Of a stretch of 64,000 nucleotides of DNA, positions 19,779-47,919 are shown piece by piece. Source of the stretch: Tropicimonas marinistellae (lineage in GTDB: Bacteria; Pseudomonadota; Alphaproteobacteria; Rhodobacterales; Rhodobacteraceae); contig NZ_LNCI01000001.1 of the NCBI RefSeq assembly GCF_001509585.1, positions 186,001 through 250,000 of the forward strand. Direction: 5' to 3'. Numbering within the stretch: position 1 is the first letter of the stretch; each line of letters begins with the position of its first letter. Both the position numbers and the translations under genes were made by a program. The notes beneath the pieces are model-generated. The model was not told the DNA's origin. It searched no databases and saw only the letters and a list, made by a program, of their open reading frames with translations.

Positions 19779-20247
19779 CATTCACACATGGCGAGTGTAG
19801 GTCGCGGAGACGCGTATTTGGTCTGGACGTGCGTGACGTCGCAAACGGCGTTTTTCAATCAAGCTTCCAGTCACTTGAGTGCCGAACGCGCAAGCGTTCT
19901 GGAGCCTTCGGTACTCGGGGCTTGGACGGCGGAGCGAGACCTGCAGCGAGTGGGCCGAGTGGTGCTGCGCGAGCAACATTCGTCAAGCTTTTTTGGAAAG
20001 CGTGACCTTCTGCAGGGGCGCTCGTAGATTAAAAGATGAATAGAAAATACATAATATAAAAAATTAGCTATCATTTAGAGTAAATTAACGTCGCAAATTG
20101 GCTTGAAGCGAGATATATTTTTCCGTTTTTGTCAATTACATTCAAATATTCATAATTTGTTGTAGATCAAGGACAATTTCCGCCACCCGTGTATCCGTGG
20201 AAGCGCAGTAGAGCCTGCTGGCATCCAGGACAGGGAGGGATATGCTC
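19779..20247. other. Long intergenic region with an AT-rich promoter half
   Basis: No gene-like frame was recognised. The first 250 bases have chromosomal GC content, and no coding or RNA structure stands out. Bases about 20028-20160 are strikingly AT-rich compared with the rest of the window. They include long A/T runs around 20040-20090 and TCAATTACATTCAAATATT. The region ends with an FNR-like box and the leader of the octaheme cytochrome gene. Confidence 0.6.
20157..20170 (+). promoter_or_regulatory. FNR/CRP-type box upstream of the octaheme cytochrome
   Basis: TTGTT-GTAG-ATCAA matches the FNR consensus TTGAT-N4-ATCAA at 9 of 10 positions. Centred at 20163.5, it would place a class II start near 20205, and TATCCG at 20192-20197 is in -10 position. 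FnrL is encoded in this window. A DNR-type nitric-oxide regulator or CRP could also bind. Confidence 0.55.
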
Positions 20248-41977: not shown

Positions 41978-41991
41978 TTGATCAAGATCAA
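41978..41991. promoter_or_regulatory. Perfect FNR box in the hemN-fnrL intergenic region
   Basis: TTGAT-CAAG-ATCAA matches the consensus at every specified base. Its centre (41984.5) is about 42 bases from the hemN ATG and 22 from the fnrL ATG, and the right half-site runs into the fnrL ribosome-binding site. This fits activation of hemN and repression of fnrL by its own product. Confidence 0.9.
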
Positions 41992-42006
41992 GGAGGGCGC
42001 GCGCGA

Positions 42007-42753
42007 ATGGAGATGCAGGAAATCGAACTGACGCATGTTGACTGTGGTAATTGCCCGATTAGGCATCGGGCAGTTTGCGCGCGCTGCGATGCGACCGAGT
42101 TGGATCAACTCGAAGAAATGAAGTATTACCGGACGTTTGAGGCCGGTCAGACCATCGCCTGGACGGGCGATAAACTCGATTTCGTCGCAACGGTGGTCAG
42201 CGGAATCGCGACCCTTAGCCAAACCCTCGAGGACGGGCGGACGCAGATGGTCGGCCTTTTGCTTCCGTCGGATTTCATGGGCCGGCCGGGCCGCGAGATG
42301 GCAACATACGACGTGACCGCCACGACAGAGGTTGTGATGTGCTGTTTCCGGCGCCGCCCTTTCGAGGATCTTATGCGGTCCACGCCGCATATTGCGCAGC
42401 GCCTGCTGGAGATGACGCTGGACGAATTGGACGCCGCACGCGAATGGATGCTGCTGCTGGGTCGAAAGACGGCGCGGGAGAAGATCGCAAGCCTGTTGGC
42501 GATTATCGCCCGGCGCAACGCGACGCTGAAGTTCGGCCAGGCACAGGGGCCGATGGAATTCGATTTGCCACTCACGCGAGAGGCCATGGCAGACTATCTC
42601 GGTCTCACGCTGGAAACTGTCAGCCGCCAGGTTTCGGCGCTCAAACGCGAAGGCGTGATCGAACTGGCTGGAAAGCGGCATGTTTCAGTGCCGGATTTCG
42701 ACCGGTTGATGCTGGAGACCGGCGACGATACCGACGGCGGAATGTTGGTTTAG
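42007..42753 (+). CDS. fnrL: FnrL, oxygen-sensing Crp/Fnr-family regulator with [4Fe-4S] cluster
   Basis: A 248-residue regulator, the same length as Rhodobacter FnrL. N-terminal cysteines C13, C16, C24 and C27 (DCGNCPIRHRAVCARC) and a Cys pair in VVMCCFRRR supply cluster ligands. A cyclic-nucleotide-type beta-roll, a dimerisation helix and an HTH with TLETVSRQVSALKREGVI follow; the E-xx-S-R pattern reads TTGAT half-sites. When oxygen is low the cluster holds the dimer on DNA. ATG 42007 has GGAGGG 9 bases upstream. Six FNR-type boxes in this window are its likely targets. Confidence 0.95.
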   Translation: MEMQEIELTHVDCGNCPIRHRAVCARCDATELDQLEEMKYYRTFEAGQTIAWTGDKLDFVATVVSGIATLSQTLEDGRTQMVGLLLPSDFMGRPGREMATYDVTATTEVVMCCFRRRPFEDLMRSTPHIAQRLLEMTLDELDAAREWMLLLGRKTAREKIASLLAIIARRNATLKFGQAQGPMEFDLPLTREAMADYLGLTLETVSRQVSALKREGVIELAGKRHVSVPDFDRLMLETGDDTDGGMLV

Positions 42754-43790: not shown

Positions 43791-43804
43791 TTGACCTAGA
43801 TCAA
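43791..43804 (+). promoter_or_regulatory. FNR box of the ccoNOQP operon
   Basis: TTGAC-CTAG-ATCAA matches 9 of 10 consensus bases. It lies about 99 bases upstream of the ccoN ATG, with TATCCT at 43821-43826 as a possible -10 element. FNR control of cbb3 oxidase genes is well established in Rhodobacter and Paracoccus. Confidence 0.8.
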
Positions 43805-46459: not shown

Positions 46460-47352
46460 GCAAACAACCTGTGAAGAAAGAAAAGGCCGAGGTCGGAACG
46501 ACCGGCCATAGCTGGGATGGAATTGAGGAATTCAACAATCCCCTCCCGCGCTGGTGGCTCTGGACGTTCTACGCCACCGTCATATGGGGGCTGATCTACA
46601 CCGTCATGTACCCTGCGTGGCCGCTCGTAAACGGAGCGACGGCCGGACTATTGGGCCATTCGACCCGCGCTGAAGTGGCTTCCGAGATCGCCAGATTCGA
46701 GGAAGCGAATTCCGGTATCCAGCAGCGTCTCGTCGACGCTGAGCTGACAGAGATCGCCGCGGATCCGGAGTTGAACAGCTACGCTCAGAATGCCGGCGCT
46801 GCCGTGTTCCGGACCTGGTGCGCCCAGTGTCACGGCGCCGGCGCGCAAGGCGCGCAGAACCTCGGCTATCCGGCCTTGGTTGATGACGCCTGGCTCTGGG
46901 GCGGCACGATCGAGGAGATCCACACGACGATCGCCTACGGTATTCGTTATGACGACGACTCGCGGTTTGGCGACATGCTTGCCTTTGGCAGGGACGACCT
47001 GCTCACCGATGAGGAAATCAACCAGACGGTCGCCTACGTGTTGAAAATCTCCGGACAGGAGTACGACGAGGCACTGGCCGGCCCCGGCGAAACGCTGTTC
47101 ATGGACAATTGCGCCTCTTGCCACATGGAAGACGGAACGGGCGAGATTTCGCTTGGAGCGCCTAACCTCACGGACGCGATCTGGCTTTATGGCGGCGATG
47201 CCGAAACCCTGTATGAAACGATCTGGAGTGGCCGAGCCGGCGTGATGCCGCCGCGTGGCGGTGCGCCTGCCGCGGTTGTCGACGAAGCAATGATTCGTGC
47301 GGTTTCGGTATATGTCCACAGCCTCGGCGGTGGCGTCGATTCCATGGAGTGA
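46456..47352 (+). CDS. ccoP: cbb3 oxidase diheme subunit III
   Basis: A 298-residue protein with two N-terminal hydrophobic segments ([24 protein letters not shown]) and two heme motifs, CAQCH and CASCH, each with its own Met-bearing fold ([23 protein letters not shown]). It accepts electrons from cytochrome cy or c2. The 4-base overlap with ccoQ indicates coupling. Its TGA overlaps a possible 53-residue frame (see next). Confidence 0.98.
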
Positions 47353-47513
47353 TGACCGGCTCCAAGCACGTCAGTATTCTTGCCGCCGCCGGCTTCTTGC
47401 CGGCGGCGTTTTTTTTGGTCCCTGGACAAGCGGCGGGCGGCAACATGGGCGGTGCGTTCGGGTGTTTCGCGGCAGCCGTTGCCTATGGCGCATGTCGGGT
47501 ATTCCTCAAATAA
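47352..47513 (+). CDS. Possible small membrane protein coupled to ccoP (53 residues)
   Basis: An ATG sharing one base with the ccoP stop (TGATG) opens a 53-codon frame starting [20 protein letters not shown]. Hydrophobic segments at about residues 7-23 and 33-52 flank PGQAAGG. However, the strong ccoNOQP terminator hairpin lies inside it (codons 11-22), so full translation needs readthrough. The hydrophobic look may come from the GCC/GGC/TTT terminator itself. Not recognised as a known family. Confidence 0.25.
   Translation: MTGSKHVSILAAAGFLPAAFFLVPGQAAGGNMGGAFGCFAAAVAYGACRVFLK
47384..47416 (+). terminator. Rho-independent terminator of ccoNOQP
   Basis: CGCCGCCGGC and GCCGGCGGCG form a perfect 10-bp stem, loop TTCTT, followed by eight T. 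It begins 32 bases after the ccoP stop. Confidence 0.95.
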
Positions 47514-47533: not shown

Positions 47534-47547
47534 TTGATCTGGATCAA
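47534..47547 (+). promoter_or_regulatory. Perfect FNR box with no protein gene at promoter distance
   Basis: TTGAT-CTGG-ATCAA matches every consensus base. Centred at 47540.5, a class II start would fall near 47582, followed by a structured 150-base stretch with its own terminator and no ORF. It lies almost 380 bases from ccoG, which has its own box. Confidence 0.85.
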
Positions 47548-47581
47548 TGTCGGTTCCGGGCGGGAAAACTACACCAAGACC

Positions 47582-47732
47582 ATAGGTTGCGGCGGACGTG
47601 AGAGCAGCGGCTCGCTCGTTGGCCCAACTACCAGAACATAGCGTTTCCAGAGGGTGTCCTCCCCTGGAAGATACGCCCCGGCTCTCCGTCCTGTTCGCGC
47701 GTTTCCTAGGAGAGCTGGGGCGCCTTTCTTTG
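47582..47732 (+). ncRNA. Candidate FnrL-regulated small RNA between ccoP and ccoG
   Basis: After the FNR box at 47534-47547 comes a stretch without a convincing reading frame on either strand. It contains hairpin 1 at 47645-47669: stem TTCCAG/CTGGAA, bulged A, GGG/CCC, loop TGTCCT. Its loop and 3' arm include CCTCCCC (47658-47664), an anti-Shine-Dalgarno-like sequence. Hairpin 2 is a 14-bp stem (47674-47687 with 47709-47722, one G-U) followed by CCTTTCTTT, a rho-independent terminator. A perfect activator box, a terminator and no ORF suggest a trans-acting RNA of about 150 nt. FnrL-dependent RNAs exist in Rhodobacter (e.g. PcrZ); homology is not claimed. Confidence 0.5.
47674..47732 (+). terminator. 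Terminator of the candidate small RNA
   Basis: A 14-bp stem (CGCCCCGGCTCTCC paired with GGAGAGCTGGGGCG, one G-U) with a 21-base loop and a CCTTTCTTT tail. It isolates the upstream transcript from ccoG. Confidence 0.8.
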
Positions 47733-47838
47733 TATATCGCAAACTCACATTCAGTTGATTGAACGCGACACGCGGGCGCAGGGCCTGTTGCACCGCCTTT
47801 TGATATGTCTGAATGAACCCGCGGGTGCGCGATCATAA

Positions 47839-47852
47839 TTGATGCATATCAA
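47839..47852 (+). promoter_or_regulatory. Perfect FNR box of ccoGHIS
   Basis: TTGAT-GCAT-ATCAA, all consensus bases. Centred at 47845.5, it predicts a start near 47887, with TAGAAC at 47876-47881 in -10 position. It overlaps codons that a longest-frame annotation would assign to the ccoG N-terminus, arguing for the downstream start. Confidence 0.88.
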
Positions 47853-47919
47853 AGACGCCTTTTCCCGCCCGCCCCTAGAACGGGCGAAATCGCGAACCTT
47901 CAGCCACCGGAGAGCTTCC

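Follow-up and report, generated by a model that had tools for sequence, protein, structure and literature searches.

What lies between ccoP and ccoG in Tropicimonas marinistellae, and what purpose might it serve? In the 64,000-nucleotide stretch of DNA analysed here (the window), the ccoP open reading frame ends at 47352 and ccoG likely starts at about 47920. The preliminary description of this interval had proposed an FnrL-activated, trans-acting RNA whose active part was a hairpin carrying CCTCCCC. From ccoP to ccoG, the forward strand carries a terminator, an FNR box, the hexamer TACACC, a hairpin with no counterpart seen outside the genus, a terminator hairpin and the FNR box of ccoG. The first of these, an ordinary intrinsic terminator 3' of ccoP with a 10-bp stem and T8 (47384–47415), separates ccoNOQP from the RNA unit and was absent from the preliminary description. 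The box, hairpins and spacing were as described there: the perfect FNR/FnrL box TTGATCTGGATCAA, which may activate a small RNA, stands at 47534–47547, the first hairpin with its CCTCCCC lies at 47644–47670, the 14-bp covarying stem of the terminator hairpin (47674–47722) is formed by 47674–47687 paired with 47709–47722 and is followed by the T-rich tail CGCCTTTCTTT, and ccoG has its own box, in the ccoGHIS promoter, at 47839–47852. The -10-like TACACC (47570–47575) stands 22 nt after the FNR box, and from this offset and from folding a small RNA of about 150 nt was predicted at 47582–47731, both ends included in the prediction. RNA folding of 47582–47735 gave z = -3.41, and of 47672–47731 alone z = -4.06.

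Seven FNR boxes with at most one mismatch were counted in the window, compared to a mean of 0.91 in shuffled sequence, and none of 100 shuffles reached seven. Just 5' of where fnrL starts lies a perfect box (41978–41991), ccoN is preceded by a one-mismatch box (43791–43804), and the starts of fnrL and of ccoNOQP–ccoG lie within about 6 kb of one another. Another one-mismatch box (20157–20170) is found in the same region of the window as a match to SorX (Rfam RF02784; 19704–19777, forward strand, 55.1 bits against a gathering score of 46.6), which was the only Rfam match in the window at gathering score. SorX is presumably the same RNA as RSs2461.

The conserved terminator hairpin

When the whole stretch from the FNR box to the tail was used as a BLAST query, 40 of 198 genomes of the family matched, the window's own included. 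Matches outside the genus fell on the terminator hairpin, and among the matches listed all but two (G003 and G182) started no earlier than query base 141. A single further genome of the genus was compared; there the terminator hairpin and the first hairpin were both kept, the latter identical, and positions from roughly 47582 to 47625 aligned poorly. An RNA acting as an anti-Shine-Dalgarno sRNA through CCTCCCC would agree with this identity, but outside the window the first hairpin was seen only in that single congeneric genome and the more distant BLAST matches lie on the other hairpin, so we regard this reading as very improbable; the CCTCCCC hairpin was rejected as the functional core. The conserved part is instead the 21-nt loop of the terminator hairpin, GUCCUGUUCGCGCGUUUCCUA (47688–47708), which, as far as comparison of sequences can tell, is probably also the functional part of the RNA and is its proposed pairing region.

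A covariance model was seeded with 30 distinct loci from the BLAST search, which had favoured them for their loops; the invariant CTGTTCGCGCGTTTCC is common to all of them and their stem varies. Twelve of the 14 stem pairs change on both sides, and paired stem cells amounted to 94.0%, compared to 81.7% in shuffles and 40–49% in slid controls. Under stricter filters the model matched 109 of the family's 248 genomes, a count that includes the 30 seeds, so that a covariance search of the family did find conserved pairing, located in the terminator hairpin; ccoP scored above its cut-off in 225 of the same 248 genomes. For the 112 model hits 110 places were fetched, two extra tandem copies in G186 sharing one stretch. 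CTGTTCGCGC of the loop was unchanged in 107 of these places (77 of 80 outside the seeds), a 16-nt loop core was exact in 88 (58 of 80 outside the seeds), and in 72 the 3' end of the hairpin showed four or more T in a window of 8 bases. A class-wide scan, likewise with stricter filters, matched two of 289 genomes, both belonging to the window's family. The loop word was present in at least 119 stretches of a named collection, at least 77 of which also contained ccoP or ccoG. Among the matches listed, the genera combining the word with ccoP or ccoG include Paracoccus, Rhodobacter, Ruegeria, Phaeobacter and Roseovarius, and in clearly non-rhodobacterial organisms with the word no ccoP or ccoG was found by tblastn. 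Some of the model-negative genomes are without such a hairpin and others have degenerate ones. Judged by its covariation, which together with the hairpin itself is established at sequence level, the hairpin is a real RNA element spread across many genera of one family.

Several loci vary in form. Two or three tandem copies of the hairpin or loop word occur in L143 (G186), L182 (Pseudoruegeria aquimaris), L207 (Rhodobacteraceae bacterium W635) and L212, spaced by about 91 nt, or by 286 nt in L212. Strongly diverged loops were found at the same place in L300 and L303, the latter having lost the CTG half and kept TTCGCGCGTTTCCT. In L006, L007, L010, L011 and L014, where the conserved hairpin adjoins ccoP, an extra GC-rich hairpin, one that lacks a clear T run, separates it from the ccoP stop.

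By place and description, rather than by a comparison of letters, the terminator hairpin fits the published orphan motif HRC-8-4, the paper on which is reportedly by Brewer et al. 2021. The position between ccoP and ccoG, a strong terminator-like stem, a U-rich tail and a conserved tip are all present, and the class-wide scan (both matches in the window's family) agrees with a restriction to Rhodobacterales. In that source, HRC-8-4 is a high-ranking candidate with 160 representatives in Rhodobacterales, a terminator with a conserved tip that lies between ccoNOQP and ccoGHIS, sometimes before hvrB, and that was not assigned a function; the authors guessed it to be an ON riboswitch or an HvrB binding site (PMC8632094). 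In contrast to that guess, we propose an FNR-controlled sRNA with fnrL and ccoG as candidate targets. The motif itself is thus already described, and what is new here is the link to FNR, the alternation between a 3'UTR and an own promoter, and the two candidate targets. In the literature searched, neither a mention of HRC-8-4 outside PMC8632094 nor a description of an FNR-driven RNA at the ccoP–ccoG place was found. The parts compared of the published sRNA tables for Paracoccus denitrificans and Ruegeria pomeroyi contained no entry that could be tied to this place. None of 4227 Rfam families reached its gathering threshold at the element, where two chance-level matches lay below threshold, and membership of an Rfam family was rejected.

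Two arrangements of the hairpin and their FNR boxes

The hairpin could be classed as ccoP-adjacent or detached in 102 of the 110 fetched places, the remainder having no ccoP nearby (L064, L077, L088, L114, L168) or a ccoP end that was not placed (L167, L169, L171). In 72 of the classed loci it sits 22–80 nt after the ccoP stop, and in 30 it is detached, in some cases beyond an inserted gene. An FNR box centred 56–132 nt before the hairpin was present in 29 of the 30 detached loci, while none of the 72 adjacent hairpins had a box at -150 to -40 (Fisher 1e-24); the contrast is partly built in, because many adjacent gaps are too short for a promoter, and for this reason the end of ccoP was searched as well, with the same result (0/72). 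L143, the sole detached locus without a box, has three copies in tandem, and the first of them adjoins ccoP. Elsewhere in the loci, FNR boxes occurred at a background of 0.017 per 111 nt, those of ccoG included. A ccoG tree, poorly resolved with 13 of 135 inner branches starred, gives at least 20 changes in detachment. The well-supported branches provide four independent pairs, in which the box tracks detachment in three to four and never runs against it, too few for significance. Three of the loci without ccoP nearby (L064, L088, L114) have an FNR box 58–127 nt upstream of the hairpin, and in L077 the distance is 178 nt.

The position of a possible -10 element was surveyed for 32 boxes of the detached class, three of them from loci without ccoP nearby. 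TA was found 22 nt after the box in ten, compared to at most four at any other scanned offset, and the 81 boxes of ccoG peak at TA offsets of 22–24. In the window the match to a -10 element consists of the TA alone (47570–47571); as it sits 22 nt past the box, at the commonest offset, an RNA start near 47582 is plausible. The box with its spacing and the switch in architecture are established from the sequences, and from them we infer transcription and, for the adjacent form, processing of a 3'UTR. The simplest reading is that FNR would have to control synthesis of the predicted RNA, whether this is the tail of the ccoNOQP mRNA or comes from a promoter of its own. As the hairpin directly follows ccoP in most classed relatives, the RNA would there be a piece of the ccoNOQP 3'UTR. 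Comparative data thereby give good support to a small RNA activated by FNR/FnrL; this sustains the FNR control claimed in the preliminary description and not its choice of the CCTCCCC hairpin as the business end.

The same arrangement bears on whether the hairpin is simply a terminator and 3' stabiliser of ccoNOQP, its loop being bound in cis by an RNase or an RNA-binding protein. The predominance of ccoP-adjacent hairpins (72/102), the strong stem and the T runs (72/110) are what such a role would lead one to expect. Among 29 detached loci, however, 12, the window included, have an ordinary terminator 3' of ccoP (0.4 expected in mononucleotide shuffles), so that ccoNOQP is there provided with its own terminator and the hairpin and FNR box nevertheless persist. 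Nor is so constant a loop obviously needed by a stabiliser, and we consider this explanation unlikely.

A regulatory role in cis on the downstream side was weighed as well. A terminator stem with a conserved tip, followed in many loci by a same-strand LysR-type gene or ccoG, could represent a terminator-embedded riboswitch or a protein-sensing attenuator (in the style of HMP-PP or guanidine-IV, or one to which HvrB binds) governing read-through into the next gene. A LysR-type gene, possibly hvrB, often lies between the hairpin and ccoG (L063–L172), the type being defined by a BLAST cluster of 33 entries, a few of them duplicates, of which one representative was checked by Pfam. Most of these reading frames do not begin until 190–700 nt downstream, and in L099 the hairpin is preceded by the cluster member. 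Where ccoG could be placed, an FNR box stands between the hairpin and ccoG in 81 of 99 loci, and in L070, L139, L145, L149 and L159 the first long reading frame past the hairpin runs on the opposite strand. Of the two opposite-strand frames compared with Pfam, that of L070 was confirmed as a DUF2270 gene and that of L139 gave no match. The detached hairpins also argue against a sensing leader, since the box can be as little as 56 nt upstream and the predicted start would leave only 14–24 nt before the hairpin in nine loci. A riboswitch or attenuator appears to be an unlikely explanation. With a box of its own for ccoG in those 81 loci and the next frame reversed in five, the FNR control proposed for the RNA is what one would expect from an RNA acting in trans, more than from an attenuator of the next gene.

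Complements of the loop in fnrL and ccoG leaders

The start codon of fnrL in the window carries CGCGCGAA (42000–42007, forward strand), an 8-nt complement of the loop. After this match had been noticed, a first set of 29 fnrL leaders, 25 of them from model-positive genomes, was examined; complements of at least 7 nt were present in seven and of at least 8 nt in four, compared to 0.37 expected and none in the reverse-complement control. A second set, the only fnrL sample independent of the window match, was obtained by searching 40 other model-positive genomes, which returned 30 loci, with script and thresholds unchanged. Here seven of 30 leaders had at least 7 nt (1.35 expected, one in the reverse-complement control), and all seven matches were 8–10 nt long, compared to 0.32 expected from mononucleotide shuffles and none in the control. 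Taken together, 14 of 59 fnrL leaders had at least 7 nt. One of these matches, the 10-nt one of G049, belongs to the four model-negative genomes in which fnrL was examined, a group too small to relate fnrL matches to the hairpin. In ccoN segments, which at 190 nt were four times longer, an 8-nt match occurred in one of 30 (the segments of L314, L317 and L323 being off the leader), and ccoN was rejected as a target on this count. Pattern searches for further targets, with GGAAACGCG or GCGCGAACA before ATG, returned about 6–47 matches per genome and were dropped as uninformative, GCGCGAACA being a common word in these GC-rich genomes.

In the ccoG leader of the window, the complement CGCGAAC (47891–47897, forward strand) is 7 nt long, a length that 13.5% of 200 dinucleotide shuffles reach, and is not significant alone. 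Across 92 model-positive loci, the longest complement between a loop and its own ccoG leader was at least 8 nt in 14, compared to three with the leader reverse-complemented, and the mean of 5.8 differed little from the 5.4 of dinucleotide shuffles. Among 20 model-negative stretches, degenerate hairpins were noticed that keep CCTGTTC and have its complement in the ccoG leader, and 38 further stretches were fetched to test this co-occurrence. In the first batch (13 with ccoG), GAACAG was in place in three of four loci with the hairpin and one of nine without it, and in the second (28 with ccoG) in seven of nine and none of 19 (p = 3e-5). In all 41 model-negative genomes with ccoG, it was in place in ten of 13 with a CTGTTC hairpin and in one of 28 without (p = 3e-6). 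Of the 140 ccoG leaders overall, 23 have GAACAG in place, compared to 2.4 in mononucleotide shuffles and one with the reverse complement; the model-positive loci with ccoG contribute only 12 of 99. The matches reach 11 nt, as for CCTGTTCGCAC with GTGCGAACAGG in L416. The flanks of the pairing follow the loop weakly (22 loci; permutation p = 0.064 in total, 0.019 on the 3' side and 0.44 on the 5' side). Many ccoG leaders (e.g. L066, L071, L098) share a GGAGYGATTCCGTG-like sequence in the start region.

The results demonstrate that complementarity of the loop to mRNA start regions is conserved in subsets of genomes only. This enrichment of complements is established in the sequences; pairing in vivo, with repression as its sign, would be the corresponding event in the cell. 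The loop can probably pair with the mRNA for FnrL or with that for an oxidase assembly factor, and we propose fnrL as the target in some genomes, perhaps including that of the window, and ccoG in others. No genome had both sites, but among the 53 in which both were looked for the ccoG motif is present in only five (p = 0.57), so that mutual exclusion of the two was not established. Further targets are likely, since most genomes show neither a ccoG nor an fnrL site and neither site accounts for the loop's GUUUCC half.

Proposed mechanism and related systems

The reading that we prefer, and hold with moderate confidence, is that the stretch encodes an FNR-activated small RNA ending in the HRC-8-4 hairpin, the loop of which would pair in trans. 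At low oxygen, FnrL would be activated and bind the box at 47534, from which an RNA of about 150 nt would start near 47582. Its terminator hairpin would display the 21-nt loop, and a small number of mRNAs from this regulon could then be paired with it in their start regions. Foremost among the candidates is fnrL, through which the oxygen sensor would receive feedback; in other genomes it is ccoG, by which assembly factors would be matched to the oxidase. Since the sites coincide with start codons or stand a short way 5' of them, the likeliest outcome would be repressed translation of the target mRNAs. A more far-reaching version, which we put forward tentatively as possible rather than probable, is that the orphan motif is the feedback arm of the oxygen regulon, its loop silencing fnrL or ccoG depending on the lineage, with the targets rewired and the loop core fixed.

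FnrS of E. coli (PMC4263372) is likewise a small RNA activated by FNR, and it represses mRNAs when oxygen is low. It differs from the RNA proposed here, in which the pairing region would be the terminator loop, feedback would act on the FNR protein itself, and no Rfam family reaches gathering score at the element. FnrL sites have been described at the promoters of the sRNAs RSs0019 and RSs2461 of Rhodobacter sphaeroides (PMC4263372); the loci are other ones, but as FnrL binds at promoters of sRNAs in this bacterial order, the principle is known there. The RNA proposed here can also be set beside autoregulating sRNAs derived from 3'UTRs, such as OppZ and CarZ of Vibrio. Such autoregulation, in which an sRNA derived from an operon mRNA's 3' end regulates related mRNAs, is reported in PMC7398697. 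The difference is that here the 3'UTR and own-promoter forms alternate between genera, and that the ccoN leaders are without a site.

Autoregulation of fnrL is mentioned for Dinoroseobacter shibae in PMC5398030. In Rhodobacter capsulatus, FnrL activates ccoNOQP and represses ccoGHIS, according to PMC4634722, and a putative RNA that represses ccoG could perhaps explain the latter effect. The analysis offers a testable function, tied to oxygen sensing, for a published orphan motif of Rhodobacterales. If true, the regulon of FnrL and the high-affinity cbb3 oxidase would gain a feedback loop at the post-transcriptional level, and the repeated switch between a 3'UTR element and an RNA unit with an FNR box of its own would illustrate how RNAs of 3'UTRs can turn into genes in their own right.
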